Below, piece after piece: positions 18,226 to 46,510 of a DNA stretch of 64,000 nt (positions are counted from its first letter, which is position 1; each line of letters opens with the position of its first letter). The notes beneath the pieces are model-generated. The model was not told the DNA's origin and did not search any database. It saw nothing but the letters and a program-made list of their open reading frames with translations. Origin of the DNA: Lachnospiraceae bacterium (GTDB lineage Bacteria > Bacillota > Clostridia > Lachnospirales > Lachnospiraceae); NCBI GenBank assembly GCA_017472605.1, contig JAFUPV010000038.1:62001-126000 (forward strand). The letters are read 5' to 3'. The translations under genes were made by a program, and so were the position numbers.

Positions 18226-18364
18226 CCTCTTTTGTATAAATCATCAAAAATGATAAGAAAACAGAGAAAAGTGAATAGAAATCACGGTCGTTTTTCGGTA
18301 TGATAGAGTCAGAACAGTCTACCGGACCGGCAGGCTGAAAATGAACGAAAAGGAGAACATACTT

Positions 18365-25509: not shown

Positions 25510-25683
25510 ATAAAAGATTAAAAAGCGTGGATTTTGTTGCAATTTTTGCCGGTATCTGATAAGGTTATACAAGTGCATTGCATTTTAGAGAACGATTTCA
25601 TCCCGTTTGCAAAACGATGTACCTGCTGCAGCTGCGGGTCAGCTGTGAAGAATGAAACATTCCCGGAAAGGAATCAGAAAGCA

Positions 25684-27747: not shown

Positions 27748-27971
27748 TTACTTAAATTAATTGGTGAAAGGGCAGCTTTATACAAGCTGCCCTTTCACTT
27801 TTTGAATCTGATTAAACTTAAAAATGCTTTGGTTTAACTTATTTTAATTACTTAAAGAATATATTCCAAAAAACTTGACTTTTACACGATAAAATAGTAC
27901 AATGCATACAAACGATTTGATTTATTTTCGATGAAAAGTTGTGCATAAAATCAATTTAAAGGTTTAAGTAA
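27748..27971 (+). promoter_or_regulatory. Promoter of the glycan-uptake operon with repeated TTACTTAAA sites
   Basis: TTGACT (27875-27880) and TACAAT (27898-27903) are 17 bases apart. TTACTTAAA occurs at 27748 and 27848, exactly 100 bases apart, and its inverse TTTAAGTAA at 27963. Related half-sites occur near 27811 (ATTAAACTTA) and 27833 (TTTAACTTA). A catabolite-control-like TGAAAACGAAAACG lies at 27728-27741, with mismatches to the known consensus. The leader is about 95 bases. No gene lies in 27660-28002. Confidence 0.55.
27764..27803 (+). terminator. Terminator after the DUF6320 gene
   Basis: GTGAAAGGGCAGCTT pairs perfectly with AAGCTGCCCTTTCAC around TATAC and is followed by five T. 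Confidence 0.95.
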
Positions 27972-28002
27972 CAAAATGGATTCGAAAAAGGGGATGAAAC
28001 CA

Positions 28003-29538
28003 ATGAAAAAGAGAGTTCGTCAGATGGAAGCAGCTCTGCTGGCAGCAGGGATTTGTCTTGGAAACACAGCCGTTTGTACCGCTTCGGAAGAGTCGGAAAC
28101 GGCTTCGGATTGGCTTTATGAAACTGTTGTTTCGTGGGAGGATGCAGTTATCATTGAGGCGGAAAACGGTGTTTTGTCAGGGAATTGCCGGGTTAAAAGC
28201 GGTAAGACCTCCTATGTAGAGGGCTTTCAGGCAGAGGGTGACAGCGTTGCAATTCCGATAACGATTAAGGAAACCGGTTTTTATGATATTGCGGTATCCA
28301 GTAAAAATCAGGGCGGTTACAAGGAAAACTATCTGCTTGTAGATGGAGCGTCCATCGCGACGTTCCCGACAGAAAGCAAAGATGCGTTTGCGGACAGTGT
28401 TGTTGAATACGTTTATTTAGAAGAAGGAGACCATGAGATTACCGTGTCTTCCTACTGGGGCTGGATTTGTCTTGACTGTATCAAGGTGAAACCGGCAAAT
28501 CAGCTGTCTGACGCAGTCTATGAAATTGAACCGAAGCTGGTTAATCCGGAGGCTTCTGATCATGCAAAACGCCTGATGGCTTATCTCTGCGACATTTACG
28601 GTGAAAAGTTCCTGTCCGGTCAGTATTGTGATCAGGGACCGTTTGGAATTGAAAATGCCTGCATCTGGAAAACAACAGGCGGAAAATTCCCGGCTGTTCT
28701 GGGACTGGATATGATCGAGTATTCCCCTTCCCGTGTGGCAAGAGGTTCTGAGGGAAAAGCAGTTGAATATGCGAAAGAGTACTGGGAAGAGTACAATGGA
28801 GTTGTGACCATGTGCTGGCACTGGAACGCACCGGAGAAATACCTGACCGGTACCTGGTACAGCGGTTTTTATAAAGACCATGCCGATGTCAATCTTGTGG
28901 AGATCATGAATGGAGAGGATCCGGAAGGTTATGATCTTCTGATGAGCGATATCGACGCCATCGCAAAGGAACTGAAGGTTCTGGCTGATGCCGATGTGCC
29001 GGTTCTGTGGCGGCCGCTTCATGAGGCAAGCGGCGGCTGGTTCTGGTGGGGAGCGGACGGAGCAGAAGCCTATATCTGGCTTTACCAGACCATGTATAAA
29101 AAGATGACAGAAGAATATGGTCTGAACAATCTGATCTGGCTTTGGAACGGTCAGGATCCGGAATGGTATCCGGGCGATGAATATGTAGATATCATTGGCG
29201 AGGATATTTATCCGGGCGAGCGCGTCTACACGGCCCAGACGGATGTTTACCGGAAAGCGGTCCGTTACGGCAGTGAGCCGAAGATGGTTGTTCTCTCCGA
29301 AAACGGATGTCTCTTTGATCCGGATCTGGCGGTGCGGGACGGTGCCATGTGGGGATTCTTCTGTACCTGGGGCGGCGAGTTTGTGACGCTTAATGCCGGG
29401 TTCAATACAATTTCCGAGCAGTACACGGAAGCGGATATGGTGAAGAAGGTTTACGAAAGTGAGTATGTGATCACCAGAGATGAGCTGCCGGATCTGAAAA
29501 ATTATCCGCTGCCGGAGGATACGGAATCAGCTGACTGA
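28003..29538 (+). CDS. Secreted GH26 beta-mannanase with CBM35-like module
   Basis: Endo-acting enzyme expected to cut beta-1,4-mannan outside the cell. A signal peptide (about residues 1-28) is followed by a CBM35-like beta-sandwich (about 42-163, IEAENGVLSGN to ICLDCIKVKP), then the GH26 barrel. The acid/base is Glu341 in WRPLHEASGGWFWWG and the nucleophile Glu433 in VVLSENGC. ATG 28003 is preferred over 27976 and 27994 because AAAGGGG is best spaced for it. No anchor motif is seen. It leads a 12-gene run. Other GH26 activities (lichenase, xylanase) cannot be excluded. Confidence 0.9.
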   Translation: MKKRVRQMEAALLAAGICLGNTAVCTASEESETASDWLYETVVSWEDAVIIEAENGVLSGNCRVKSGKTSYVEGFQAEGDSVAIPITIKETGFYDIAVSSKNQGGYKENYLLVDGASIATFPTESKDAFADSVVEYVYLEEGDHEITVSSYWGWICLDCIKVKPANQLSDAVYEIEPKLVNPEASDHAKRLMAYLCDIYGEKFLSGQYCDQGPFGIENACIWKTTGGKFPAVLGLDMIEYSPSRVARGSEGKAVEYAKEYWEEYNGVVTMCWHWNAPEKYLTGTWYSGFYKDHADVNLVEIMNGEDPEGYDLLMSDIDAIAKELKVLADADVPVLWRPLHEASGGWFWWGADGAEAYIWLYQTMYKKMTEEYGLNNLIWLWNGQDPEWYPGDEYVDIIGEDIYPGERVYTAQTDVYRKAVRYGSEPKMVVLSENGCLFDPDLAVRDGAMWGFFCTWGGEFVTLNAGFNTISEQYTEADMVKKVYESEYVITRDELPDLKNYPLPEDTESAD

Positions 29539-29561
29539 GGAAGGAGACAGGAGGACGGCGG

Positions 29562-30149
29562 ATGAAAAAATGGTTTACGATGGAAGGTCATCTCTATGAA
29601 TGGCTGAACCGGATCGGAAATCTGATCATTATCAGCGTTCTGTTTCTGATCGGATGTATTCCGGTTTTTACAATAGGAACTTCACTGATTTCTCTGTACT
29701 ATGCGGTTGCCAAATCAATCCGCTGCGGAGCCGGATATCCGGCAGGAGAATTCTGGAGATCCTGGAAACGAAATTTGTGGAAAGGCATTCTGCTTTCCGT
29801 CTGGGTGCTTCTGCTGTTGTTTCTGCTGAATTACAGACAATGGCCTGCGGTTGCTGTACTGGCAATACTTCTGCCCATGTACATACCGGCCGCTTCCAGA
29901 TTTGCACTTCCGTTCGGAAGGTTGATAGAACTGACACTTGTTATGTCAGTCCGATATTTTTATGTGACGCTGCTTCTATTAATAGGAAGTGTCGCAGTTG
30001 TTTTGCTTCAACTGTTTGTTTTGCCGGCGGTATGTATTGTTCTTGTTCCGGGACTGTACGTTTACCTGACCACTTTTCTGACAGAAAAAGTGCTGCGGGC
30101 CTACACGCCAAAGGCGAAAGACGGACAGAAACAATGGTTTGATGAGTAA
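29562..30149 (+). CDS. DUF624 family membrane protein (YesL-like)
   Basis: A 195-residue integral membrane protein with four to five hydrophobic segments and the DUF624 N-terminal pattern (hydrophilic start, NRIGNLIIISVLFLIGCIPV, then TIGTSLISLYYAVAK). YesL-like genes sit beside solute-binding proteins and permeases in plant glycan loci of Bacillus and Paenibacillus, but their role is unknown. It follows GH26 after 23 bases with a strong GGAGG site and precedes the large binding protein by 21 bases. A role in assembling or tuning the importer is inferred from location only. Confidence 0.85.
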   Translation: MKKWFTMEGHLYEWLNRIGNLIIISVLFLIGCIPVFTIGTSLISLYYAVAKSIRCGAGYPAGEFWRSWKRNLWKGILLSVWVLLLLFLLNYRQWPAVAVLAILLPMYIPAASRFALPFGRLIELTLVMSVRYFYVTLLLLIGSVAVVLLQLFVLPAVCIVLVPGLYVYLTTFLTEKVLRAYTPKAKDGQKQWFDE

Positions 30150-30170
30150 CGAAGAAGGGTGAGGTTTGGT

Positions 30171-33100
30171 ATGCAGAGAAGAGAAACACGCAGATGGAAA
30201 ACTGCTGGCAGTCTGATTGCCCTGGCGGGAGGAATGCTCTTATCACTTCCTGTCGGAGCAATGGCAGAAACTGATCTGTCCATTGATGATTTCATGGAGA
30301 TTGTCGGAACCTATTCTGTGAATAACGACATTCCGGGATACCGCGAGTACTGTGATCAGTTTGATGCGGTGTGGCCAGAGGAAACGGTATCCATTGGTGC
30401 AGCGGACTATGTGCGCTATGAGGATTCGGAAGATGCGAAGGCGAAGCCGGAGATTTACAGCGACTACAAAGGCAAAGACGGGGACAGCGTTCTGATCAGT
30501 GAGACAGGAATGATCGAGTATGAGTTTGAGGTGGAAGAGGAAGGTTTCTATCAGATGAACCTCAGCTACTTCCCGATTGAAGGAAAAGCATCCGAAATCC
30601 AGCGTGCTGTTTTCCTTGACGGCGCACTTCCCTACGAAGAGATGGCGGACCTTGAGCTGTCACGCATCTGGTCGGATGACATCACTTCCATGTCAGAAGA
30701 TGAGAACGGAATTCTTGTTCAGGACTGGGAAGTGGATAATCAGGGAAATCACCTGAAGCCGGGCATGGAAGAAGTTCCGGAATGGATCACAACCGCTCTT
30801 TATGACAGCAATGGTTATGTAACAGATGCGCTGTCTGTCTATCTGACTCCCGGTGAGCATTCCATCGCTCTGTTATCTCTGCGAGAGCCCCTTCTGCTGA
30901 ATGAGATTACGTTTACACCGGCAGAAGAAATCAAAACCTATGAAGAAGTGAAAGCACAGTGGGATGAGGAAGGTGCACAGGAAACTTCCGGTGTGTCCAT
31001 CCGTATCGAAGCGGAAAACGCAAGCCGTACCTCCTCTCAGATGCTGTATCCTCAGCAGGATCAGTCCTCCCCGTCTGTTTATCCGGTCAGCACCAGCGCG
31101 CTGCTGAACAACTCCATCGGAGGAAACTCCTGGAAACTGACCGGTCAGTGGATCGAATGGGAGTTTGAAGTGCCGCAGGACGGTTACTATAACATTTCCA
31201 TGTATGCAAAACAGAATTTCATGCGTGGTATCTATGTTTCCAGAAAAATCATGATCGACGGACGGGTTCCTTTTGAGGAAATGGAAGATTACGGTTTCTC
31301 CTATGCGCAGAGCTGGAGACTGGATATGCTGTCCGATGAAGAAGACAATCCCTATGAATTTTATCTGACTGAGGGCACCCATGCAATTCGTATGCAGGTT
31401 GTTCTCGGTGAGTTCTCCGATATCATCGGTGATGTGCAGGAGAGTGTGACGAAGCTGAATGCGATCTACCGCAGTGTGATCCGAATCACCGGCGTTTCTC
31501 CTGACGTTTACCGTGACTATCAGCTTTCCACCTCTGTTCCGGGACTGGAAGAGGATCTGAAGGATGCCCGTGAACAGCTGGGCGGCGCGCTGGCAAGACT
31601 GCGTGAAGTTGCAGGAAGCGGAAGCGATAAAGAGACTGTGCTGGTAACCATGGTTGACCAGCTGGATGAGCTGATCGCCGATCAGGACCGTTTCCCGGAG
31701 GTTATCGGTTCCTTCCGTATCAATGTCCGCGCGACCGGTAACTGGATTACACAGGTCGTTGCCCAGCCGCTTCAGCTGGACCGCATCTATGTGACCTCAG
31801 CGGACACGGATGTGAAGATCGAAAAGAACGGTTTCCTTGACAATGCGGCCTTTGAGGTTTCCCGTCTTTACTATTCGTTCATCATCGACTACAACCAGGT
31901 CGGAAACGTTGCTGATGACGAGGATACCACTGCAATCACCCTCTGGATCGGCACCGGCCGTGACCAGGCAAATGTAATCAAGTCGCTGATCGATGAAACG
32001 TTTACACCGGAAACGGGAATCAGCGTCAATGTTCAGCTGGTAGATATGAACACCCTGCTTCGCGCGACACTGGTAAATGAAGGACCGGATGTGGCGATTC
32101 AGGTGGCAAATACAAACGGTATTGCCGGTGCCGTTCTCAACACCGGTAATGATACACCGGTAAACTATGGTCTTCGTAATGCGGTTCTTGATCTGACCCA
32201 GTTCGAAGATTTTGAGGAAGTGGCATCCCGCTTCAATGAAAGCGCGCTGACTGCCTTCAGCTTCGACGGAGCCACCTATGCGCTGCCGGAGACGCAGACC
32301 TTCCTGATGATGTTCTACCGCAAGGATATTCTGGCGGAGATCGGACTGGAGATCCCGCAGACCTGGGATGATGTGAAGGTTGCGATGAACGTTCTCAGCA
32401 AGAACCAGATGGAATTCGGTATGCTGCCCAGCGAGCAGGTGTTTGCGATGCTGCTGTATCAGGCAGGCGGAGAGTACTATACCGAAGACGCGACTGCGTC
32501 CGCTCTGGATTCCGATATCGCTGTCAATGCGTTTAAAGAATACTGCGAATATTACACGGACTACAAGCTGGATAAGGAAACTTCCGTGGAAGAGCGTTTC
32601 CGTACCGGTGAGTGTCCGCTGATCATCGCCGACTATACCGTTTACAACAATCTGGAGGTTTCCGCTCCGGATATCAAGGGACTCTGGGGCTTTACCATGG
32701 TTCCGGGAACAGAAAAGGAAGACGGAACCATTGACCGTACAGTTGGATGTACCGGTCTTGCCAGTCTGATCATGTCCGCGACCGATGAGCCGGATGCCAG
32801 CTGGGAATTCTTAAAGTGGTGGAGCAGTGCAGAGACACAGATCGCCTATGACCGCGAAATGGAATCTCTGATGGGTTCCTCTGCCCGTGTCGCAACCGCA
32901 AACCTGGAAGCGTTTGAGAGCCTTCCGTGGCCGGTTGAGGATTTCCGTGCGCTGCAGGAGCAGTTTACCTGGGTAAAGGGTATTCCGCAGGTTCCTGGCG
33001 GCTACTATTCCTGGCGTAATGTAAACAATGCGTTCTATACCGTAACAACGAAAACAGACATTGCATCACCGCGTGAGGAGCTGATGGACAAGGTTATCTA

Positions 33101-33176
33101 CATCAACGATGAGATTTCCTTCAAGCGTGACGAGTTCGGACTGCCATTGGCAGGCGATGCAGCAACAGAAGAGTAA
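30171..33176 (+). CDS. Large solute-binding protein with two N-terminal carbohydrate-binding-like modules
   Basis: A 1001-residue secreted protein, more than twice the usual size for a family 1 solute-binding protein. After a signal peptide ending near AMA come two related beta-sandwich modules (about 55-260 and 275-440). They share a pattern of G-F/Y-Y with later IDG/LDG and PYEEM/PFEEM segments. A helical linker follows (about 455-520). The C-terminal ~400 residues are a MalE-like binding fold (ITLWIGTGRDQANVIKSLID to a tail near LPLAGD). The signal lacks a lipobox cysteine, unusual for a Gram-positive binding protein. ATG 30171 follows GGGTGAGG. Two permease genes follow immediately. Confidence 0.88.
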   Translation: MQRRETRRWKTAGSLIALAGGMLLSLPVGAMAETDLSIDDFMEIVGTYSVNNDIPGYREYCDQFDAVWPEETVSIGAADYVRYEDSEDAKAKPEIYSDYKGKDGDSVLISETGMIEYEFEVEEEGFYQMNLSYFPIEGKASEIQRAVFLDGALPYEEMADLELSRIWSDDITSMSEDENGILVQDWEVDNQGNHLKPGMEEVPEWITTALYDSNGYVTDALSVYLTPGEHSIALLSLREPLLLNEITFTPAEEIKTYEEVKAQWDEEGAQETSGVSIRIEAENASRTSSQMLYPQQDQSSPSVYPVSTSALLNNSIGGNSWKLTGQWIEWEFEVPQDGYYNISMYAKQNFMRGIYVSRKIMIDGRVPFEEMEDYGFSYAQSWRLDMLSDEEDNPYEFYLTEGTHAIRMQVVLGEFSDIIGDVQESVTKLNAIYRSVIRITGVSPDVYRDYQLSTSVPGLEEDLKDAREQLGGALARLREVAGSGSDKETVLVTMVDQLDELIADQDRFPEVIGSFRINVRATGNWITQVVAQPLQLDRIYVTSADTDVKIEKNGFLDNAAFEVSRLYYSFIIDYNQVGNVADDEDTTAITLWIGTGRDQANVIKSLIDETFTPETGISVNVQLVDMNTLLRATLVNEGPDVAIQVANTNGIAGAVLNTGNDTPVNYGLRNAVLDLTQFEDFEEVASRFNESALTAFSFDGATYALPETQTFLMMFYRKDILAEIGLEIPQTWDDVKVAMNVLSKNQMEFGMLPSEQVFAMLLYQAGGEYYTEDATASALDSDIAVNAFKEYCEYYTDYKLDKETSVEERFRTGECPLIIADYTVYNNLEVSAPDIKGLWGFTMVPGTEKEDGTIDRTVGCTGLASLIMSATDEPDASWEFLKWWSSAETQIAYDREMESLMGSSARVATANLEAFESLPWPVEDFRALQEQFTWVKGIPQVPGGYYSWRNVNNAFYTVTTKTDIASPREELMDKVIYINDEISFKRDEFGLPLAGDAATEE

Positions 33177-33188
33177 GGGAGGGATCAC

Positions 33189-34121
33189 ATGAGTTCGGAA
33201 GAAATGCTGAAAAAGCAGGCAAAAAAAGAAAAGAGGCTTCTTTATCGAATCAAGCGTGAACGTGCATCCTACCTGATGCTGGCGCCGTATTTCATCCTCT
33301 TTTTCCTGTTTACGGTGCTGCCGGTGGTTCTGTCTATCGGTTTAAGCTTCACTCACTTTAACATGCTGGAGATGCCGACCTTCATCGGCTGGGACAACTA
33401 TGTCAAGCTGTTCCTGGAGGATGATATTTTCGGTATTGCTCTGAAAAATACACTGATCTTTGCAGTGATCACCGGTCCTGTCAGCTATTTCCTCTGTCTG
33501 TTGTTCGCGTGGATCATTAACGAGTTCCACGGAAAGCTGAGAGCGTTTCTGACACTGATCTTCTACGCGCCGTCCATCTGCGGAAACGCGTACCTGATCT
33601 GGACCATCATCTTAAGCGGTGACCGTTACGGCTACTTAAACGGTATCCTGCTGAAATTTGATATTATTAACGAAGCCATCCTCTGGATGAAAACAGAGCA
33701 GTATGTCATGCCTGTTCTGATCATTGTACAGCTGTGGCTGTCTCTTGGTACCGGTTTCCTTTCCTTCATTGCAGGTCTTCAGACGGTTGACAAGACCCTC
33801 TATGAGGCAGGTGCCATTGACGGTGTCAAGAACCGCTGGCAGGAGCTGTGGTACATCACCCTTCCTTCCATGAAGCCTCAGCTGATGTTCGGTGCAGTCA
33901 TGCAGATTACCCAGTCCTTCGCAGTTGCTGATATTTCCATTCAGCTGGCGGGCAACCCGTCTGTCAACTACGCAGGAGCGACGGTTGTAACTCATCTTCT
34001 TGACTACGGTTCCACCCGTTTTGACATGGGTTATGCGTCTGCCATCGCGACAGTTCTGTTCCTTCTGATGGTAGGAACCAATAAAGTCGTACAGAAAATT
34101 CTTGGAAAGGTTGGTGCGTGA
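33189..34121 (+). CDS. Sugar ABC transporter permease (MalF-type), first pair
   Basis: Six-helix inner permease of 310 residues of the carbohydrate uptake 1 family. The cytoplasmic coupling loop is EAGAIDGVKNRWQELWYITL, the EAA motif that docks the ATPase. A GGGAGG site precedes the ATG. Its stop shares one base with the next start (TGATG). With the following gene it forms a heterodimer for the large binding protein. No ATPase gene is present in the window, so a shared MsmX-type ATPase is inferred. Confidence 0.93.
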   Translation: MSSEEMLKKQAKKEKRLLYRIKRERASYLMLAPYFILFFLFTVLPVVLSIGLSFTHFNMLEMPTFIGWDNYVKLFLEDDIFGIALKNTLIFAVITGPVSYFLCLLFAWIINEFHGKLRAFLTLIFYAPSICGNAYLIWTIILSGDRYGYLNGILLKFDIINEAILWMKTEQYVMPVLIIVQLWLSLGTGFLSFIAGLQTVDKTLYEAGAIDGVKNRWQELWYITLPSMKPQLMFGAVMQITQSFAVADISIQLAGNPSVNYAGATVVTHLLDYGSTRFDMGYASAIATVLFLLMVGTNKVVQKILGKVGA

Positions 34122-35005
34122 TGAAAAAACTTGGAAAAACATTTCGTCGTCTGTTCCACAGACAGAAGCAGCTGAACCGTTCCATGGCTGGAAATACTTT
34201 ACTGTTTGTTCTGATGGGAATCTGTGGTGTGTTCATGGCGCTTCCGCTTGTTATGATCGCCAACAATGCACTGAAACCCCTGGATGAGATTTATCAGTAT
34301 CCGCCGAAGATTTTTGTTCGAAATCCTACGCTGGAAAATTTCTCCGATCTGTTTGTTTTAATGAATGACTCCTGGGTACCGTTTTCCCGTTACATCATCA
34401 ACACGGTGATCATCACCGGAGGCGGAACCGTCGGTCACGTTCTTGTGGCTTCTCTGGCCGCGTACCCGCTGGCGAAGAGAAACTTCCCGGGAAAGAGCAT
34501 TGTGTTCAGCATGGTTGTCCTGTCCATGATGTTCTCCTGGACGGTAACACAGATCCCCAACTACATGATCATTTCCTGGCTCCATATTAACAACAATTAT
34601 CTGGCACTGATCCTTCCTGCATGGCAGTACGGCATGGGTCTGTACCTGATGAAGCAGTTCATGGAGCAGATCCCGGATTCACTTCTGGAATCAGCAAGAC
34701 TGGACGGAGCAAGTGAGTTCCGTGTGTTCTGGACCATCGTGATGCCGAACGTAAAGCCGGCATGGCTGACACTGGCAATTTTCCAGTTCCAGCAGATGTG
34801 GGGCAACACAGGAAGCATGTACCTGCGCGATGAGGCACTGAAGCCGCTGCAGTTCGCGCTGCAGCAGATTACGGCAGGCGGTGCTGCGAGAGCAGGTGCA
34901 TCTGCAGCGGTAACCTTCTTTATCGCGGCGATTCCGATCATCTTCTTCCTTGCGTGTCAGAGCAATGTCCTTGAGACCATGACCACGTCCGGAATGAAGG
35001 AATAA
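34121..35005 (+). CDS. Carbohydrate ABC transporter permease (MalG-type), first pair
   Basis: Partner permease of 294 residues with six membrane segments and the EAA loop ESARLDGASEFRVFWTIVMP. The N-terminus is basic and long. ATG 34121 overlaps the preceding stop by one base, so translation is coupled. An in-frame GTG three bases earlier is less likely. It is followed 14 bases later by the NHL propeller gene, a partner not found in classical maltose-type systems. Confidence 0.93.
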   Translation: MKKLGKTFRRLFHRQKQLNRSMAGNTLLFVLMGICGVFMALPLVMIANNALKPLDEIYQYPPKIFVRNPTLENFSDLFVLMNDSWVPFSRYIINTVIITGGGTVGHVLVASLAAYPLAKRNFPGKSIVFSMVVLSMMFSWTVTQIPNYMIISWLHINNNYLALILPAWQYGMGLYLMKQFMEQIPDSLLESARLDGASEFRVFWTIVMPNVKPAWLTLAIFQFQQMWGNTGSMYLRDEALKPLQFALQQITAGGAARAGASAAVTFFIAAIPIIFFLACQSNVLETMTTSGMKE

Positions 35006-35019
35006 CGAGGAGGGGAGAT

Positions 35020-37123: not shown

Positions 37124-37137
37124 TAAAGGGGGATAAG

Positions 37138-39714
37138 ATGAAAACAGGAAAGAAAATACTGATTGCTCTGATCAGCCTCGTTGTCCTCTGTGTTGCCGGA
37201 TTTGTTGCATGGTATCTGACAAAATATGTGTTCTATGATGACTACAAGCAGTACATCCGAACCTATGAGTATGAAGAGGGAACCGAGTTTACTCAGATCA
37301 AAGAAGATAAGGCTGACGTTGCAGGAATGCTTCTTGCAGCCGAAAACGAGAATTTTAAATTATATGTAAAGAAATCTACGGCAAATGTGGCTCTCTATGA
37401 TAAGAGAACCGGTGAGATCACCTATGCAAACCCGCTGGACGGCGCCAATGATGCCAATGCCAACGGAACCCACAAAAAGTATCTGCAGTCTCAGCTGATC
37501 ATTGAATACTTCAACACAAGCCGTGTGTCCGGTATCATGGATTCCTTCTCCTATGCGGTAGAGACAGATCAGGTGACTTACGAATCCATTGAGAATGGTC
37601 TGCGTGTTGTCTATGAAATCGGTGATAAGAGCAGCAAGACAGGTATTGTTCCGATCTACATCAGCGATGAGCGTCTTCAGCTGTTCTTAAGCAAGATGAG
37701 TGAAGACGATGCCAAGGATACAAAGAAGCGTTATACCGAGTCTTCCGTTGGAGAAGGCTGGTGGGAATTAAACTCCGGTTCCCAGAAGGGTGCCGCGATT
37801 CTGCGTAAGCTGAACAAGTACTTTGAAAGTGCCGGTTACACCGAAGAGGACTATGTGGCCGACATGACTGCTTCCGGTGTGGAAGGCGTGATTCCGATTT
37901 CCTTTGTGATTCCGTTAGAGTACCGTCTGACCGAGGACGGCATGGAAGCAACCATTCCTGCGGAGCAGATCGTGGAGAACGGAGGCGGTACCCTGTACCG
38001 GATTCAGATGCTCCGCTACTTCGGCGCGGCAGGCATGGAAGAAGAGGGCTATATGCTCGTTCCCAATGCTTCCGGTTCCATTATTTACTTTAACAACGGA
38101 AAGACCAATGTTCCGGATTATAACCAGTATATTTATGATATCGACCCGCTGGCTGCAAACTATACAGTGGTTGAGGAAACTCAGAAGGCCCGCATGGCGC
38201 TGTTTGGCATCAGTTATGAAGATTACGGAATGCTGGCAACCATTGAGGAGGGAGAGTCCCTTGCTTCTGTCAGTGCCAGCGTTGCTGGTAAACTGAACAG
38301 CTATAACTACGCGTATCCGATCTTTACTGTCCGCGGTTATGATAAGCTTGACATGTTCGGCGCGTCCGGAAATCAGGCAAGTCTTCCTGTCGTTGAAAGC
38401 CGGATGGCACAGACGGATCTGACGGTTCGCTATACCATGCTGGAAGAGGAAAATGCAGATTATGCCGGAATGGCAAACTACTACCGGGAGCGCCTGATCA
38501 GTGAAGGTGTTCTGACGGCAGCGGATGAGGAGAGCGGTGATATTCCGTTCTACATGGACATCATCGGCGGTGTTAAAGAAACCGCGTTCATTCTTGGCGT
38601 GCAGTACCTCAATGTGAATCCGATGACCACTTTTGAGCAGGCGGGAGAGATTTCCAAAGACCTGGCGGCAAGCGGCGTTTCCAATCAGGTCATGAATTTC
38701 CAGGGCTGGTTCAACGGCGGTTATTACCACGATGTAGCTGACAAGATCAAGGTGATCCGTAAGCTGGGCGGAAAGTCCGGTCTGGAGGAGCTCAATGATC
38801 TGATGGAAGAAAACGGAAATAAGCTGTATGTGGAAACTGCTTTCCAGAAAGTATCCTTCATTTCCAAGCGTTACCAGTATGCATGGGAGAGTGCCAAGTA
38901 CTACGGCGGCGGTTATGTAGCTGCCTTTGGTCAGGTCAACCCGGCAACCATGCGTCAGACCTCCAGCCTTGGCTATCAGGAGACAAGATATAACATCATT
39001 TCTCCGAAGTTTTTGACACGCTATGTGGACGCGTTCAGCAGCAAAATCCAGGATTATGACGTAGCCGGAATTTCTTTAAGCGACCTTGGCGATGTACTCA
39101 GCTCCGACAAGAAGAGAACCGAGATCATCGACAGACAGCAGGCTCTTGATGTGGTAAGAGGCCAGTTTGAGATTCTGGAATCTACCGGAAAGAACATCAT
39201 GGTCAGCGGCGGAAATGACTATTCTTTCGCCTATGCAGATGACCTGCTCAATGTATCCAGCAGCGACAATGACTTCTTTGTCATTGATGAAAACGTTCCG
39301 TTCTATCAGATGCTGATCCACGGCTCCATTGATTACAGCAGTGAGCTGATCAATCTGAGCGATGTATCCGATCCGGAAGCATATGCGCTGCAGCTGATTG
39401 AATACGGCATGTCTCCTCACTATGTATTTACCGAAAAGAGTTCCAACGAACTGAAGTATACCGGTCTGAACATGTATTACTCCACCTGCTACGATACCTG
39501 GAAGGATGATGCGGTGGAGATGTATGAGACCATAAACGGAGCACTGAAACATGTATCCGGCGCAGCAATGGTGGATCATGAGATTCTTGAGGACGGTGTC
39601 CGCAAGGTGACCTATTCCAACGGCTGCGTGATCTATACCAACCCGTCAGCAGAGGATGTTACCGTTGATGGCATTACAGTAAAAGCAAAATCTTACGAAG
39701 TGGAGGGGATTTAA
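37138..39714 (+). CDS. DUF5696 protein, membrane-anchored, possible glycosidase fold
   Basis: An 858-residue protein with one N-terminal membrane helix (about 7-27) and a large outer part, with no signal cleavage site. I assign it to DUF5696. Residues about 50-470 look like a large beta-sandwich region. From about 475 a barrel-like part follows with segments typical of glycosidase barrels (MNFQGWFNGGYYHDVADK; DVAGISLSDLGDVLSSD; NIMVSGGNDYSFAYAD). The C-terminus is a small beta domain. Acidic residues in those segments are candidate catalytic groups. AAAGGGGG precedes the ATG. The next permease starts at the very next base after the stop. An enzyme on imported or surface-bound glycans is my inference. 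Confidence 0.8.
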   Translation: MKTGKKILIALISLVVLCVAGFVAWYLTKYVFYDDYKQYIRTYEYEEGTEFTQIKEDKADVAGMLLAAENENFKLYVKKSTANVALYDKRTGEITYANPLDGANDANANGTHKKYLQSQLIIEYFNTSRVSGIMDSFSYAVETDQVTYESIENGLRVVYEIGDKSSKTGIVPIYISDERLQLFLSKMSEDDAKDTKKRYTESSVGEGWWELNSGSQKGAAILRKLNKYFESAGYTEEDYVADMTASGVEGVIPISFVIPLEYRLTEDGMEATIPAEQIVENGGGTLYRIQMLRYFGAAGMEEEGYMLVPNASGSIIYFNNGKTNVPDYNQYIYDIDPLAANYTVVEETQKARMALFGISYEDYGMLATIEEGESLASVSASVAGKLNSYNYAYPIFTVRGYDKLDMFGASGNQASLPVVESRMAQTDLTVRYTMLEEENADYAGMANYYRERLISEGVLTAADEESGDIPFYMDIIGGVKETAFILGVQYLNVNPMTTFEQAGEISKDLAASGVSNQVMNFQGWFNGGYYHDVADKIKVIRKLGGKSGLEELNDLMEENGNKLYVETAFQKVSFISKRYQYAWESAKYYGGGYVAAFGQVNPATMRQTSSLGYQETRYNIISPKFLTRYVDAFSSKIQDYDVAGISLSDLGDVLSSDKKRTEIIDRQQALDVVRGQFEILESTGKNIMVSGGNDYSFAYADDLLNVSSSDNDFFVIDENVPFYQMLIHGSIDYSSELINLSDVSDPEAYALQLIEYGMSPHYVFTEKSSNELKYTGLNMYYSTCYDTWKDDAVEMYETINGALKHVSGAAMVDHEILEDGVRKVTYSNGCVIYTNPSAEDVTVDGITVKAKSYEVEGI

Positions 39715-40629
39715 ATGAAGAAAAAGAAAAGACTGACCCTGACACAGAAAAGAAGCCTGACCGGACTGACGTTCATTCTGCCATGGCTGATCGGTTTCAT
39801 CATTTTCTACCTTCGCAGTTTGATCATGACCGTTGATTTCTCTTTCTCAACGATTGAGGTCAACCCGCAGGCCGGAGGATACAATCAGACCTTTGCCGGA
39901 TGGGAGAATTTCCGCTACGCGTTCCAGGTTCACGGAACCTTCAAACAGGTTCTGACCACCTCCATCGGTGACATTCTGATTGACGTTCCGCTGATCATTT
40001 TCTTCAGCCTGTTCATGGCGCTTGTGTTAAACCGCAAGTTCCGCGGAAGAACGCTTGTCCGTGCGATTTTCTTCCTTCCCGTAATCATGAATTCTGAAGC
40101 AATCACAGCAGCTCTGGATTACAGCCGTCAGCAGCTCATGGGCGGTCTGACAGCAGCCAGCGCCGAGGTGATGGAAGGCTCCGGCGGAATGAGTCTGGAC
40201 TACTACATTGACATGTTCGGAAGCCTCGGCATGCCGGACATGATCCTGGAATACATCGTAGGCGCTATCGGCCGTCTGACCGACATCATCAGTGCTTCCG
40301 GTGTCCAGATCATCATCTTCATCGCAGCCCTTCAGGCAATCGCTCCCAGCATGTATGAGGTAGCGAAGATCGAGGGTGCGACCGGATATGAGACCTTCTG
40401 GAAGGTTACCTTCCCCATGGTGCTGCCTCATATCATCACGAACCTTGTCTATACCGTGGTTATCAACTTTGCGGAGAGTGAGATCGTTACGCTTTCCTAC
40501 AGCACGATCTTTTCCGAGAATAACTATGGACTTGGTTCCGCCTTTGCACTGATCAGTACGCTGATCGTGTGTCTGATCCTGGTAATTGTTGTCGGCTTCA
40601 TTCAGAAGCGTACATTCTACTATAACTAA
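39715..40629 (+). CDS. Sugar ABC transporter permease, second pair
   Basis: A 304-residue MalF-type permease with six membrane segments and EAA loop EVAKIEGATGYETFWKVTFP. An insertion of about 50 residues with a helical pattern (AASAEVMEGSGGMSLDYYID) between membrane segments is longer than in the first permease. The start codon directly abuts the stop of DUF5696, with GGAGGGG in the end of that gene. It pairs with the following gene and probably with the binding protein at 43161. Confidence 0.92.
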   Translation: MKKKKRLTLTQKRSLTGLTFILPWLIGFIIFYLRSLIMTVDFSFSTIEVNPQAGGYNQTFAGWENFRYAFQVHGTFKQVLTTSIGDILIDVPLIIFFSLFMALVLNRKFRGRTLVRAIFFLPVIMNSEAITAALDYSRQQLMGGLTAASAEVMEGSGGMSLDYYIDMFGSLGMPDMILEYIVGAIGRLTDIISASGVQIIIFIAALQAIAPSMYEVAKIEGATGYETFWKVTFPMVLPHIITNLVYTVVINFAESEIVTLSYSTIFSENNYGLGSAFALISTLIVCLILVIVVGFIQKRTFYYN

Positions 40630-40646
40630 GAGAGGAGGAGTACAAA

Positions 40647-41633
40647 ATGAATCTTTCCAGATACAAAGCCGAGTATGCCGAGTACAAGGCAACCGGCCAG
40701 TTGAACAATTCGATAAAAAAATGGTCAACAAATGGAAAAAACCTATTGTTTGGAATCTTCCGATTGGTTATAATAGTAGGTATCAGCTATGTGATTCTTA
40801 GCCCGCTGATCGGTATTGTCAGCTCGTCCTTCTTCTCGGAAGAGGATGTCTACAATCCGATGGTTTACCTGCTTCCGACGGCTCCAACGCTGGAGCGCTA
40901 CACGAAAGCAATCCTTCGTCTGGACTACTGGAATATCATGAAAAACACCCTGCTGTACACCGTGTCGCTGACGCTGATCCAGCTGGTTGTGACTTCCATG
41001 GTAGGCTATGGATTCGCAAGATTTGATTTTCCGTTTAAGAAGCTTCTGTTTGGATGTGTTGTAATCATGATCGTCATTCCGACCCATACGGTTATGCTTC
41101 CGCTGTACATGTCCTTTGCGACCTTTGATCCGTTTGGCATTCTGAGTCATTTCGGTGTTGAGACGAACCTTCTTTCCTCACCGGTTCCGATGTACATACT
41201 GACTCTGTTTGGATGCGGTCTTCGAAGCGGTCTTTACATTTACATTTTCAACCAGTTCTTCCGCGGTCTTCCCAAGGAGATCGAGGAGGCGGCGTTTGTG
41301 GACGGCGCAGGTCCGTGGCGTACCTATCTGCGTGTCATGCTCCCGAACGCAGTTCCATCGATTATTACTGTCACTGTCTTTTCTCTGGTGTGGCAGTATA
41401 ATGATACCTTCTATGGAAAACTTTTCCTGATCAGTGACGATATTCTGATCAGTAAGAGTATCCTTTCCCTGCAGGATAACATTACTAACCTGGATAAAAT
41501 ACTTGACCCAAGTATTTCCCAGCTGTATGTATATGCAGGTATTGTGATGCTGATTCTGCCGTTAGTCATTATGTATGTTCTGCTGCAGCGTCATTTCATC
41601 GAAGGTGTTGAGCGAAGCGGTATCGTTGGCTGA
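40647..41633 (+). CDS. Carbohydrate ABC transporter permease, second pair
   Basis: A 328-residue MalG-type permease. It has a hydrophilic N-terminus of about 33 residues (YKAEYAEYKATGQLNNSIKK), six membrane segments and EAA loop EAAFVDGAGPWRTYLRVMLP. AGAGAGGAGG precedes the ATG. A hairpin overlaps its stop codon. After that point codon use shifts to a strongly biased, high-expression style in the next two genes. Confidence 0.92.
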   Translation: MNLSRYKAEYAEYKATGQLNNSIKKWSTNGKNLLFGIFRLVIIVGISYVILSPLIGIVSSSFFSEEDVYNPMVYLLPTAPTLERYTKAILRLDYWNIMKNTLLYTVSLTLIQLVVTSMVGYGFARFDFPFKKLLFGCVVIMIVIPTHTVMLPLYMSFATFDPFGILSHFGVETNLLSSPVPMYILTLFGCGLRSGLYIYIFNQFFRGLPKEIEEAAFVDGAGPWRTYLRVMLPNAVPSIITVTVFSLVWQYNDTFYGKLFLISDDILISKSILSLQDNITNLDKILDPSISQLYVYAGIVMLILPLVIMYVLLQRHFIEGVERSGIVG

Positions 41634-41643
41634 TACCGCCGCT
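41611..41643 (+). other. Hairpin over the stop codon of the second MalG-type permease
   Basis: AGCG plus GCGGTATC pairs with GATACCGC plus CGCT around GTTGGCT, with an AA bulge. No T run follows, so it is not a standard terminator. Such hairpins can protect or set the 5' end of a more stable downstream mRNA. Confidence 0.45.
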
Positions 41644-41688
41644 CCCAATACAGACTTTCATAAAAAATAATAAAAGGAGGAGTTTATT

Positions 41689-43113
41689 ATGAAAGCAAAG
41701 AGAGTAATCCCGGCACTTATGTTGTCTGCACTGGCATTCTCCAGCGTGGCACTTGCAGAGGAGGCTGCAACCGTTGTTGATTTCGAGGACGGCAACGTTG
41801 GCTTCGTAGCAATGGACACCGCTCCTGGTGATGCTTCTGAGTGCGAATTTGAGGTTGTTGACTGGAATGGCTCCAAGGCCCTGAAGGTGAACGCAGAGGA
41901 TGGAAAGGTTCCGTACATCGGAATCGACATCGCAAGCCTGACCGGCGACAAGATCGCTGACATCCGTACCATCGAGTTTACCATCGGTGCAGAAGGTCCG
42001 GACGGCGAGTTCTATGCAGTAAGCGGTGATGTAAACACCTACATCGGTGAGGATCGCACCATGTCCACTTCCGACTGGAGCGTTTACATGGCAAAGAAGA
42101 ACCCGAAGGTTGCAACCGTTAAGCTGACTGACGATCAGGTATTCGCTGCTGACGCACAGAACATCATGATCATTACCAAGGGCAACAAGTCCGATTCTGA
42201 CGTAAGCATGTTCAAGGGTGAGGGCCCGAACATCATCTACATCGACGATATCCGTTTCCTGGATGCAGACGGAAACGCAATCGCTGTTGATACCACCGTT
42301 GAGTTTGACAAGCCGGCCGGCTTTGGCGCTGCTGACATGTCCAACCTGACCGGACTTCTTGGTGAAAACGTAATTGACGGCGCAACCGGTTCTTCTGCAG
42401 GTTCCTGGGGACAGGCAGTTGCTCTTGATACCGCAAAGAACGGCGGAACCTTTGATCCGGCTGTGATTGAGCCAGGTACAATTATTTCCGTTTACTATAC
42501 TGCTGATACCGCTCCTGAGCTGGTTCTTCAGTCCTGGACTGAGGGATGCCCGGAGACCATGGGCTGGGCAAAGGTTGCTCCGAGCGCAGTGAATGATTCC
42601 GGTACCATCTGCCAGTACACCTATGATGATATCGTAGCTGTAATTGGTTCTGAAGATTTCGCAACCTATCTTGACAAGTTCTATGTTGGTGACACCGGTT
42701 CCGCTCTGAACGTATCCAAGGTTTCTGTAGCAATGCCGGCTGGCGAAGAGTTCATCATCGAGGGCGCTGTTGGTGAGTCTGCAGGTTCCTGGGGACAGGC
42801 AATCACTCTTGGTACCCTGAAGGATGGCGGTACTTTTGATCCGGCTCTTCTTGCAAAGGATTGCACTATTTCTGTATACTATTCTGCTGATACCGCTCCT
42901 GAGCTGGTTCTTCAGTCCTGGACTGAGGGATGCCCGGAGACTGCTGGCTGGGCTAAGGTTGCAGCTACAACTGACAACGGTTCTGTAGCAACCTACTCCT
43001 ACGAGGCAATGGTAACTGCATTCGGTTCCGAAGATTTCGTAACCTATCTTGATAACTTCATCGTAGGCGATACCGGTTCCGCTCTGAGCGTAACCAAGGT
43101 TACCGTTCAGTAA
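41689..43113 (+). CDS. Abundant secreted protein with tandem beta-type repeats, unknown function
   Basis: A 474-residue exported protein with signal peptide ending SVALA. The N-terminal domain (about 25-205) resembles a jelly-roll (VVDFEDGNVGFVAMD; IIYIDDIRFLDADG). Two copies of a ~120-residue domain follow (about 225-345 and 353-474). They share SAGSWGQA, GGTFDPA, TAPELVLQSWTEGCPET and GSEDF-TYLD-F-VGDTGSAL. The repeats look like carbohydrate-binding modules, but I cannot name a family. No anchor or lipobox is present. Codon bias is strong, suggesting high output. It sits directly before a binding protein, so a glycan-capturing surface or secreted partner is inferred. Confidence 0.82.
   Translation: MKAKRVIPALMLSALAFSSVALAEEAATVVDFEDGNVGFVAMDTAPGDASECEFEVVDWNGSKALKVNAEDGKVPYIGIDIASLTGDKIADIRTIEFTIGAEGPDGEFYAVSGDVNTYIGEDRTMSTSDWSVYMAKKNPKVATVKLTDDQVFAADAQNIMIITKGNKSDSDVSMFKGEGPNIIYIDDIRFLDADGNAIAVDTTVEFDKPAGFGAADMSNLTGLLGENVIDGATGSSAGSWGQAVALDTAKNGGTFDPAVIEPGTIISVYYTADTAPELVLQSWTEGCPETMGWAKVAPSAVNDSGTICQYTYDDIVAVIGSEDFATYLDKFYVGDTGSALNVSKVSVAMPAGEEFIIEGAVGESAGSWGQAITLGTLKDGGTFDPALLAKDCTISVYYSADTAPELVLQSWTEGCPETAGWAKVAATTDNGSVATYSYEAMVTAFGSEDFVTYLDNFIVGDTGSALSVTKVTVQ
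42500..42557 (+). repeat. 58-base direct repeat, copy 1
   Basis: Identical to 42884-42941, 384 bases (128 codons) downstream. Both encode the same segment of the two repeat domains (ADTAPELVLQSWTEGCPET). Confidence 0.9.
42884..42941 (+). repeat. 58-base direct repeat, copy 2
   Basis: Exact copy of 42500-42557. The surrounding domain copies have diverged more, so recent gene conversion or strong local constraint is likely. Confidence 0.9.
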
Positions 43114-43160
43114 TTCAGAAAAGCAATGTATTGAGAGAAAGAGAAGGAGGATCTTGATTT

Positions 43161-44495
43161 ATGAATATGTTAAAGAGAACAATCGCATTTGGAATGTGCG
43201 CATCTATGGTAGCAGGACTTGGCGTTACCGCTTTTGCTGAGGAAATCACAATTCCGGAAGAGACCAGAACCATCACCATCGGTACCTGGTATGACCACTA
43301 CTATGATTCCACTCATGAGGACATCTACGCAAACCCGGATGTTGCTGATGAGGAGACCGCACAGATCCAGTTCGATCATCTGAAGGCAATCGAAGAGAAG
43401 TACAACGTAAAGATTGAGTATGTAAACCTGACCTGGGACGGCGTAATCGAGTCCATCAACACTTCCATCATGGCTGGACAGCCTGACTGCGACATCTACG
43501 AAGTAGACCTGCAGTTTGGTGTACCGGCAGCGTTAAACGGCTATGCAGTAGACTTAAAGACAGTTCTGAGCGAGGACAACGATCTGTTCAATGAGCAGAA
43601 GTACATGTTCTACACCGACCTGAACAATGGACAGGCAAACGTATTCAACGCAGTTCTGAAGTCCAATCTGCTTGGCGGATATCCGCTTGGATACAACAAG
43701 GACATGATCGCTGACGCTGGTCTTGAGGATCCGCAGGAGCTGTGGGCAAACGGCGAGTGGACATGGGACAAGTTCCTTGAGTACTGTAAGGTTCTGACTG
43801 CTGATAACGACGGCGATGGTGTAACAGACGTTTACGGCTACGGCGGATGGTGGACCAGCATGCTGGACGGCTTCCTTCTGAGTAACGGCGCAACCATCGC
43901 TTCCGGCGCTGAGCAGACCCTGACAAGCCCGGAGACCGGTGAGGTTCTTGACTTCATCAACACCCTGTACAATGTAGAGAAGGTTGCAAGACCGTGGAAC
44001 TCTGATGACTGGGATATCAACAACTCCTGCTACAAGGATGGAGAAATCTGCTTCTTCATCGCTCCGGCATGGACCATCACTCCGGATGAGCTGACCTTCG
44101 AACTGGGCGTTGTTCCGTTCCCGGTAGGACCGAGCGGCGATGCTGAGACAAACAAGGGTTACAACGCAACTACAGGAAACAACTACCTGATTCCGGCTGG
44201 TGTTGAGGATCCGGCATTCGTTTACACCGTATTTGCTGATTACATGACCTGGTACGGCGATGATCTTGAGCTTCGTGATGATGTTGAGTGGTTCGAGAAC
44301 CAGATGATCTCTGAGGAGAACTTCAACATGCTTCTGAGCCTTGGTGAGGCTGGCGGTGAGTTCGACCTTTGGGGCAAGCTGAATGTTTCCACATTCGATA
44401 TGGTTGGCCTGATCAATGGTGAGAAGACTCCGGCACAGGTACAGGAAGAGAGCAAGCAGGTATTCCAGGATGCTCTGGATGCATTCTTCAAATAA
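43161..44495 (+). CDS. Extracellular sugar-binding protein
   Basis: A 444-residue MalE-like binding protein with signal peptide ending AFA before EEITIPE. The mature part shows TITIGTWYDHYYDS, a mid-region WTWDKFLEYCKVLTADNDGD and a C-terminal helical end. The calcium-like loop DNDGDGVTD is notable. There is no lipobox cysteine at the cleavage site, so it would not be tethered as a lipoprotein. Codon use is the most biased in the operon. GGAGGAT precedes the ATG. It likely feeds the second permease pair. The ligand is unknown, and GH5 follows, suggesting products of a beta-glucan or mannan. Confidence 0.92.
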   Translation: MNMLKRTIAFGMCASMVAGLGVTAFAEEITIPEETRTITIGTWYDHYYDSTHEDIYANPDVADEETAQIQFDHLKAIEEKYNVKIEYVNLTWDGVIESINTSIMAGQPDCDIYEVDLQFGVPAALNGYAVDLKTVLSEDNDLFNEQKYMFYTDLNNGQANVFNAVLKSNLLGGYPLGYNKDMIADAGLEDPQELWANGEWTWDKFLEYCKVLTADNDGDGVTDVYGYGGWWTSMLDGFLLSNGATIASGAEQTLTSPETGEVLDFINTLYNVEKVARPWNSDDWDINNSCYKDGEICFFIAPAWTITPDELTFELGVVPFPVGPSGDAETNKGYNATTGNNYLIPAGVEDPAFVYTVFADYMTWYGDDLELRDDVEWFENQMISEENFNMLLSLGEAGGEFDLWGKLNVSTFDMVGLINGEKTPAQVQEESKQVFQDALDAFFK

Positions 44496-44515
44496 TTGAG
44501 AAATGAGTGACCGTT

Positions 44516-45886
44516 ATGAAGAACAGAATTGGTAAAAAAGCTGCTCTTCTGGCCGGTATGCTGATGGCAGGCGGATGTGTAATCACATCCGCCTTTGCCG
44601 TTTTGTCCGGTCAGGCAGAGGTAAAGACGGAAGGGCTGATCCGGGAGCTGGTATCCGGAATCCCGGTAATGGCAGCGGAAGATGAGACGGCTGCAGGAGG
44701 AAATAAATTCGTGAAACAGGAAGTGACGATCCCAGAGGTGACGTTTGAGCAGAAGGAAATCCCGGATACCGGGGCAATGCAGTTTGTAGAGAACATGAAG
44801 CTGGGCTGGTGCCTGGGAAATACCTTTGATGCCAGCACAGACGAGAACCTGGACGGAGATGAGCTGAAATATGAAACGCTCTGGTGCGGCGCCGAAACAA
44901 CGCCGGAGCTGATTCAGAGCATCAAGGATGCCGGCTTTGAGACGATCCGCATTCCGGTCAGCTGGCATAACCATGTGGATGAGGAGTTTACCATCAGCGA
45001 CGCGTGGATGGATCGTGTGCAGGAAGTGGTTGACTATGCAGTGGATGCGGATCTGCACATTATCATCAACATTCACCACGACAATGATCCCCGGTTCTTC
45101 TATCCGGACAGCGAGCATCTGGAGTCCTCCCTGAACTATGTGACAACCATCTGGGAACAGATTGCAGAACGGTTTGCGGAGTATGACGAGAAGCTGATTT
45201 TTGAAGCGCTCAATGAGCCACGTCTTGTGGGAACTCAGTATGAGTGGTGGCTTAATCCGAACGCGGCAGAGTGTAAGGAGGCGGTGTCCTGTCTGAATCA
45301 GCTGACACAGGCGTTTGTGGACACGGTTCGAAGCTCCGGTGGAAACAATGGAGAACGGTATCTGATGATCCCTGGTTACTGCGCGTCTGTGGACGGCGCA
45401 ATGAATGATGGATTCCAGCTGCCAAAGGACAGCGTCGAAGACCGACTGATTGTCTCTGTCCATGCCTACACACCATACAATTTCGCGCTGCAGAAGCCGT
45501 CTGAGCAGGGCAGCGTCAGCACCTTTGATATGGAGAGCAGGAGCAGCACAAAGGACATTGACTACCTGATGAATTCTCTGTATGAGAAATGGACCAGTCA
45601 GGGGGTTCCTGTTGTGATCGGTGAGTTCGGTGCGATGTTCAAGGATCAGAATCAGCAGGCCCGTGTGGACTGGGCTTCCTACTATGTGGCACAGGCAAGA
45701 TCCGTTGGAATTACCTGCTGCTGGTGGGACAACAACGCGTTTACCGGTGACGGGGAGAACTTTGGTCTGATCAGCAGATTTTTAAGAAAGTGGAGATTCC
45801 AGGATGTGGTGGATGCGATGATGCTGTATTCGGCAGTACCGGAGAACGAGGCGAAAGAAACTTCGGAAGCAGTGGAAAATAAGTAA
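44516..45886 (+). CDS. Secreted GH5 endoglycanase (cellulase family)
   Basis: Endo-beta-glycanase of GH5, 456 residues. After a hydrophobic leader (KAALLAGMLMAGGC, with a cysteine in a weak lipobox context) and a linker, the barrel begins near LGWCLGNTFDA (about 96). The acid/base is Glu234 in FEALNEPR and the nucleophile Glu370 in VVIGEFGAM. The LGWxLGNTFDA start recalls subfamily 4 (cellulase, xyloglucanase, lichenase), but mannanase activity cannot be excluded. ATG 44516 or GTG 44507 could be used, and neither has a strong ribosome site. It is the last gene of the operon before a terminator. Confidence 0.9.
   Translation: MKNRIGKKAALLAGMLMAGGCVITSAFAVLSGQAEVKTEGLIRELVSGIPVMAAEDETAAGGNKFVKQEVTIPEVTFEQKEIPDTGAMQFVENMKLGWCLGNTFDASTDENLDGDELKYETLWCGAETTPELIQSIKDAGFETIRIPVSWHNHVDEEFTISDAWMDRVQEVVDYAVDADLHIIINIHHDNDPRFFYPDSEHLESSLNYVTTIWEQIAERFAEYDEKLIFEALNEPRLVGTQYEWWLNPNAAECKEAVSCLNQLTQAFVDTVRSSGGNNGERYLMIPGYCASVDGAMNDGFQLPKDSVEDRLIVSVHAYTPYNFALQKPSEQGSVSTFDMESRSSTKDIDYLMNSLYEKWTSQGVPVVIGEFGAMFKDQNQQARVDWASYYVAQARSVGITCCWWDNNAFTGDGENFGLISRFLRKWRFQDVVDAMMLYSAVPENEAKETSEAVENK
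44570..44593 (+). other. Perfect 10-bp hairpin in the GH5 signal-peptide region
   Basis: GGCGGATGTG, loop TAAT, CACATCCGCC, followed by TTT. It lies about 55 bases inside the coding frame. The arms resemble those of the dispersed palindromic element but without its 7-base loop or tail. Confidence 0.6.
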
Positions 45887-45906
45887 ATCAGTCAGGGATT
45901 GACTGC

Positions 45907-45954
45907 AGCGGGAGATTTGAGTTGTCGCAGGAGAACTTTGATTTCCCGCTTTTT
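45907..45954 (+). terminator. Terminator of the glycan-uptake operon
   Basis: AGCGGGAGAT pairs with ATTTCCCGCT across a 24-base loop and is followed by a run of T, just after the GH5 stop codon. Confidence 0.75.
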
Positions 45955-46044
45955 GCATGTTGGTTCAAAAACAACAAAATCGTCGTGTCTGCAGGATCCT
46001 GGTATGATATACTTATGTTGTTTCGAAACAAAGGAAGGTATCAT

Positions 46045-46443: not shown

Positions 46444-46510
46444 TGGACTGGAGAGAAGAGAGGAAACGGTTGTAACTGAAAAATGTGACAGCAGATATCA
46501 GGAGGAAAGA

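Follow-up and report, generated by a model that had tools for sequence, protein, structure and literature searches.

The window analysed here, 64,000 nucleotides of a Lachnospiraceae contig (JAFUPV010000038.1, positions 62,001 to 126,000), contains 13 genes on one strand (27976-45886, +) predicted to form an operon for the capture and import of glycans. Its middle is a conserved cassette with the gene order SBPL-F1-G1-NHL-YIP1-DUF5696-F2-G2, usually followed by a gene for a second binding protein, SBP2. SBPL is a large binding protein, F1/G1 and F2/G2 are two permease pairs of the ATP-binding cassette (ABC) importer type, and NHL, YIP1 and DUF5696 are membrane proteins. From the gene content, its conservation, the fusion of NHL with YIP1, the co-inheritance of the parts and the predicted fold of DUF5696 we infer a physical complex, a shared ATPase, a role for DUF5696 and a cargo. 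We tentatively read the operon as a beta-mannan or glucomannan utilisation locus built around this double-importer cassette, with an NHL-YIP1 scaffold and DUF5696 as a binding protein, and give this reading nearly even chances of being correct. An earlier note on this DNA had described a glycan operon of 12 genes. The count is 13, every part it named is present in the sequence, and conservation across relatives supports its picture of a capture and import operon with an unusual middle.

Conservation and co-inheritance of the cassette

We searched for DUF5696 in 200 genomes from sampled genera of the same family and found any match at E 0.001 in 79 and a match over the family cut-off in 59, some of which hold GH129-like enzymes instead. 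A phylum sample of 398 genomes included 37 with DUF5696 at E 1e-40 or better, the window's own genome among them, and DUF5696 occurred in 15 family codes of this sample. The named-genome sample consisted of the best 80 of 551 confirmed DUF5696 loci; these were ranked by similarity to the window-type DUF5696 and so form the least independent sample. Neighbourhoods were taken for 70 family, 80 named and 20 phylum loci. Loci with less than 5.5 kb upstream or less than 2.5 kb downstream of DUF5696, or with no DUF5696 open reading frame (ORF) over 600 aa, were dropped (13/70 family, 22/80 named, 2/20 phylum and 1/3 from the own genome), leaving 57, 58 and 18. ORF calling at these loci favours ORFs with profile matches, and the NHL and YIP1 profiles were built from separate domains because fusion proteins merged the whole-protein profiles.

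NHL was present in all 57 family, 58 named and 18 phylum loci, and YIP1 in 55, 56 and 16 of them, respectively. Both permease pairs were found in 53/57 family, 54/58 named and 12/18 phylum loci, and thus the earlier observation that two permease sets bracket NHL, YIP1 and DUF5696 holds across relatives. SBPL was present in 55/57 family loci. All core parts occurred together at 49/57 family, 51/58 named and 10/18 phylum loci, with strict gene order in 48/57 family loci. The same order is found on the independently annotated plasmid pNP243 of Butyrivibrio fibrisolvens D1, and Lachnoclostridium phytofermentans KNHs2131 (locus L060) has the cassette as well; both are culturable relatives. The window's own genome holds three cassette copies. 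The second of these, near the end of the same contig (L004, C9:143000-159502), has NHL and YIP1 fused, a DUF5696 with a lipobox, and an alpha-L-fucosidase gene.

With the window NHL protein as query, NHL and full-length DUF5696 were found in an identical set of 43 of the 200 family genomes, and no genome had one alone. Second fragments of counted genes are excluded, as are GH129-like enzymes and, at G030 and G051:C156, two short relatives of DUF5696; one genome (G016) is counted through two fragments of a single split gene. Seventy-one of the 73 NHL matches lay no more than 6 kb from a DUF5696 match, and 71 of the 75 DUF5696 matches lay near an NHL match. The two unpaired NHL matches are in one genome and belong to the same cassette, where inspection revealed an adjoining DUF5696 gene of more than 850 aa. 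One of the four unpaired DUF5696 matches (G173:C18) adjoins a sub-threshold NHL-YIP1 fusion (L166), and two of the other three are near contig ends. The earlier note had suggested looking for co-occurrence of NHL, YIP1 and DUF5696 with permease pairs, and these counts bear the idea out strongly.

Layout of the operon and its parts

The genes and flanking signals, in order along the window, are as follows:

27763-27799 (+): hairpin (16 pairs, 8 G-C) and T run, terminating the gene before the operon
27875-27903 (+): sigma-70-type promoter candidate, TTGACT-17-TACAAT, 10/12 match
27976-29538 (+): GH26 with CBM35, secreted, mannanase-like
29562-30149 (+): DUF624 membrane protein, distant MusI-family match
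30159-33176 (+): SBPL, two CBM35-like modules, helical region, solute-binding domain
33189-34121 (+): permease F1
34118-35005 (+): permease G1
35020-36558 (+): NHL propeller, TPR-like stretch, C-terminal membrane helix
36476-37123 (+): YIP1 membrane protein, fused to NHL in relatives
37138-39714 (+): DUF5696, membrane-anchored, predicted GH129/DagB fold
39715-40629 (+): permease F2
40647-41633 (+): permease G2
41689-43113 (+): secreted protein with two CBM65 modules
43161-44495 (+): SBP2, solute-binding protein
44507-45886 (+): GH5, nearest match a beta-1,3-1,4-glucanase
45908-45954 (+): terminator, long stem (end about 45949) then T run

The gaps between consecutive genes are 23, 9, 12, -4, 14, -83, 14, 0, 17, 55, 47 and 11 bases. 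All genes lie on one strand, with overlaps or gaps of at most 55 bases. The -83 overlap assumes that YIP1 begins at the first ATG of its ORF; judged by eye, a start some 15 bases further on is the better candidate. The promoter candidate at 27875 lies directly past the upstream hairpin. Shuffled sequence leads one to expect 20.6 promoter-like sites and the scan gave 20, a total that neither proves this promoter nor excludes internal ones. Thus, the "one clear promoter" of the earlier note stands as a candidate, and a single transcript across the 13 genes is likely. Folding of 45900-45965 gave a long GC stem and then TTTTT (-29.2 kcal/mol, z -5.4, 0/200 shuffles as good), confirming the terminator placed near 45907, with a stem at about 45908-45949. 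A short-loop terminator scan missed this site and found 18 sites against 17.5 expected.

The SBPL ORF encodes 1005 aa from a GTG; the 1001 residues given before apply if translation starts at Met5, a residue that hardly varies among relatives. C-terminally SBPL carries a solute-binding domain whose closest sequence match is Listeria Lin1841, entries for which are described as beta-1,2-glucooligosaccharide-binding protein. The N-terminal part gave no Pfam match above cut-off and contains two related modules that match the CBM35 of the GH26 proteins (hhalign 91% and 96%) and, at 99.6%, one another. This comparison of profiles used one template, and its E-values do not refer to a whole database. 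The 50 Foldseek matches listed for the SBPL model, which is moderately confident overall (mean pLDDT 71.9), all cover the binding-protein domain, so the CBM35-like call rests on the profile comparison. A simple pattern, as opposed to a trained predictor, detected a lipobox in 1/57 family, 2/56 named, 1/15 phylum and 0/2 own-genome copies of SBPL, and in 46/50, 46/54, 4/19 and 0/2 copies of SBP2, respectively. Some SBPL copies have an N-terminal helix that looks uncleaved, so we gave up the view that the protein is secreted and free in every case. SBP2 and the CBM65 protein of the window (41689-44495) are without the lipobox that most family and named relatives have. The capture proteins of the window would need another means of retention, and the missing lipobox in SBPL, SBP2 and the CBM65 protein is partly why we suspect a scaffold.

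The earlier note treated NHL and YIP1 as separate membrane proteins. This is true of the window, where they are encoded by separate, overlapping, out-of-frame genes, but the two form one ORF in 23/57 family and 7/18 phylum loci. The fused ORF is about 690 aa in most cases examined, and one paralogue in the window's own genome (L004) is fused. A 719-aa "YIP1 family protein" on a Paenibacillus plasmid is apparently also the fused form. Hydropathy of the window proteins predicts an N-terminal signal-like helix and one C-terminal helix for NHL and five helices for YIP1. These features suggest that NHL and YIP1 together make up a single scaffold.

In trees of 303 F and 297 G proteins, those encoded upstream of DUF5696 separated from those encoded downstream of it with 0 errors and support of 1.0. 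The identity between the window copies is 24.5% for F1 and F2 and 22.7% for G1 and G2. Each permease pair is a lineage of its own, and the two do not mix. A strict pattern for the EAA-type loop matched G1 and G2 of the window, and the loops of F1 (YEAGAIDG) and F2 (YEVAKIEG) were recognised by eye; under a looser pattern there were matches in 93/142 F1, 55/161 F2, 130/138 G1 and 151/159 G2 proteins. There is no ATPase among the 13 operon genes. A search of the genome for ATPases with a TOBE_2 match found three, all outside the operon. Two are nearest to polyamine types, each with an adjoining permease-like ORF by eye, and the third (C39) belongs to the UgpC subfamily, above cut-off. On the Paenibacillus plasmid, annotated by others, one ugpC gene lies beside both permease pairs. 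All four permeases of the window probably share one UgpC/MsmK-type ATPase encoded elsewhere.

The nearest match of the GH26 protein is a GH26 mannanase and that of the GH5 protein a beta-1,3-1,4-glucanase. What the earlier note called a secreted repeat protein is indeed secreted, and its repeats are two CBM65 modules. CBM65 modules bind beta-glucans and xyloglucan; a phmmer search with this protein against the PDB gave no match at E 0.01. The DUF624 protein is similar to the NCBIfam MusI family, with a score well under the model cut-off. MusI is an ancillary subunit of a maltose importer, and given this likeness the statement that classical maltose-type systems have no such partners was too strong.

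We clustered 309 unlabelled same-strand ORFs of at least 240 aa around the cassettes of relatives and named each cluster from one representative. The clusters include GH130 (39), LacI (24), GDSL esterase (18), GH36 (10) and epimerase (8), and other loci carry arabinofuranosidase, GH43, GH106, GH3, GH10, GH2 or fucosidase genes. The GH130, GH36, esterase and epimerase set fits the mannan pathway of R. intestinalis, as given in excerpts of PMC6385246. Based on this set and the GH26 gene, our best guess for the cargo is beta-mannan or glucomannan. Since other loci pair the cassette with enzymes for different glycans, its core looks substrate-neutral. At one locus (L241, a plasmid of Paenibacillus cellulosilyticus) the import core is surrounded by genes for LLM flavin-dependent oxidoreductases, together with one ugpC ATPase gene, which hints that the sugar carried there is another one or a modified one.

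DUF5696 and alternative readings

The earlier note listed DUF5696 among proteins of no known function. By structure prediction it has the full three-domain fold shared by GH129 NagBb and GH129-like DagB (PDB 5wzn, 5opq). It differs from these enzymes in that its likely catalytic acids are not invariant, it is anchored to the membrane, with an N-terminal helix or a lipobox as extracytoplasmic anchor, and it is encoded beside permeases. In the reference enzymes an Asp follows strand 4 (D435 of NagBb, D486 of DagB). The candidate in the window protein is Asp649, two residues past strand 644-647 in the model; hhalign places the nucleophile four columns away, at Val653. Residue 649 is Asp in 102/146 DUF5696 proteins and Gly in 25/146. 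The Glu after strand 5, which may not define the GH129/DagB group, is E517 in DagB by alignment and E478 in NagBb. The aligned position is Ser690 in the window protein and Glu in 23/146, and no Glu after strand 5 is conserved among the 146 proteins. Because Asp649 is variable, the strand-5 Glu is mostly absent and the same protein occurs beside enzymes for different glycans, DUF5696 is more probably a protein that binds oligosaccharides and holds them in position than one that hydrolyses them. At L238, a single permease pair and one binding protein come after a short DUF5696 relative of 560 aa, possibly a simpler form of the system.

In the operon as we read it, the secreted GH26-CBM35 and GH5 enzymes would cut polysaccharide, whose chains would be held at the surface by the double-CBM65 protein and by SBPL through its CBM35-like modules. 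SBPL would serve F1/G1 and SBP2 would serve F2/G2, and the ATPase-docking loops kept by all four permeases would receive a UgpC/MsmK-type ATPase from elsewhere. The NHL-YIP1 scaffold, with its propeller and TPR-like part outside and about six membrane helices, would link both importers, and the membrane-anchored DUF5696 would bind and position oligosaccharides. It is possible, and we hold this with less confidence than the reading of the operon itself, that the whole is one composite machine, with two ABC importers joined by the scaffold and a pseudo-glycosidase guide, swappable surface enzymes, and a Sus-like coupling of capture to import evolved on ABC parts. The earlier note had proposed a surface complex as a Gram-positive counterpart of Bacteroidetes systems. 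Capture and import are supported, and a single complex or trimming at the membrane would be further steps.

Several observations weigh against our reading. Asp649 is kept in 81/103 separate-type DUF5696 proteins, and Asp336, Asp717 and Glu755 are kept in 157, 145 and 155 of 166; an active site is therefore possible. Of the two catalytic residues of NagBb, Asp435 alone is common to DagB, yet DagB is active (excerpts of PMC5698469), so loss of the Glu is no proof of inactivity. Together with the complete fold, the extracytoplasmic anchor and the 102 proteins with Asp649 just past strand 4, these points favour DUF5696 as an active membrane-bound exo-glycosidase that trims side groups before import and is held near the permeases by NHL-YIP1. 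We consider this somewhat unlikely, as residue 649 in fused-type members is Asp in 8/38 and Gly in 21/38, a conserved Glu after strand 5 is missing, and DUF5696 stays constant while nearby enzymes and presumed cargo vary. Two independent importers in one operon could also look similar. Each binding protein adjoins its own permease pair, the pairs are of different lineages, SBP2 is not universal (46/57 family and 7/18 phylum loci), SBPL-F-G lies downstream in three phylum loci, and the short DUF5696 relative has a single permease pair. The importers would then differ in oligosaccharide preference, and NHL, YIP1 and DUF5696 would serve one of them or another surface task such as sensing. We judge this improbable, since both pairs bracket the three proteins in nearly all family loci, NHL and DUF5696 co-occur exactly, and one ugpC gene lies beside both pairs in Paenibacillus.

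Other points concern the cargo. There is no GH130 gene among the 13 operon genes, although GH130 is present in many relatives' loci and has four matches elsewhere in the genome. GH5 and CBM65 fit beta-glucan or xyloglucan equally well, so that of the "mannan or glucan" proposed earlier, mannan is backed by the genes in relatives' operons and glucan by these two parts. Our reading is built from gene content and homology. An ordinary mannan utilisation operon, with the extra membrane proteins as passengers kept by operon structure, would agree with the GH26 gene and with the fit of relatives' GH130, GH36 and epimerase genes to the known mannan pathway, but is very improbable because the same three proteins occur with different enzyme sets and in 15 family codes.

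Known systems and neighbouring genes

Importers of the MalEFGK/MsmK type comprise a binding protein, two permeases with EAA-type loops and an ATPase encoded elsewhere. The cassette shares these features and differs by combining four distinct permeases with three additional membrane proteins and, in most cases, a second binding protein. Bacteroidetes Sus-type systems couple surface capture to import. The cassette resembles them in this spirit only, and no TonB-dependent transporter or SusD is encoded among the 13 operon genes.

The MULL/MULS loci of R. intestinalis, as described in excerpts of PMC6385246, resemble the operon in combining a GH26 mannanase with ABC import of manno-oligosaccharides, and their GH130, GH36, esterase and epimerase genes are those that relatives of the operon add. 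They differ in having one binding protein with two permeases, and YIP1, NHL, DUF and CBM65 are absent from the main text of that paper. The definition of a Gram-positive polysaccharide utilisation locus (gpPUL) in excerpts of PMC5320581 asks for degrading enzymes, a carbohydrate importer and a regulator nearby. The operon has GH26 and GH5 as polysaccharide-degrading enzymes, and two binding proteins and four permeases for transport. An AraC-type helix-turn-helix (HTH) ORF just past its terminator is a candidate for the regulator. Neither a scaffold nor a second importer nor DUF5696 is part of the definition, and YIP1 and NHL are absent from the main text of the paper. YIP1 and NHL are likewise absent from the main text of a beta-glucan locus paper (PMC10318527), and the cassette from passages of two mannan and polysaccharide papers (PMC13278490 and PMC4230839). 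Searches of the main texts of open-licence PubMed Central papers found no mention of DUF5696; searches there for YIP1/NHL combinations and MusI returned nothing on the cassette. The parts are of known kinds, and the fixed cassette is apparently a new form of Gram-positive glycan import, undescribed in the open-access literature.

The coupling of surface breakdown to import is less understood in Gram-positive bacteria than in Bacteroidetes. Clear targets for its study come from a fixed cassette that combines four permeases with three membrane proteins of unexplained function and, in most cases, two binding proteins, and that is present in 43 of the 200 sampled family genera and in 15 family codes of the phylum sample. 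The cassette gives DUF5696 a fold and a testable role and a group of YIP1 proteins a partner, and its genes may serve as markers for which bacteria use which plant glycans.

The AraC-type HTH ORF (45922-46443) overlaps a 410-aa ORF without Pfam match in another frame (46346-47578); the region 45922-47578 holds two genes that overlap or, alternatively, a single regulator interrupted by a frameshift. Elsewhere in the window are genes for a lacto-N-biose phosphorylase (18341-20539), a GH20 (54540-55955) and a GH35 (58663-60441), which may reflect use of host glycans beside the plant-glycan operon. Just upstream of the hairpin, at 25534-27659, an acyltransferase-like gene with weak Pfam matches is followed by a DUF6320 gene.

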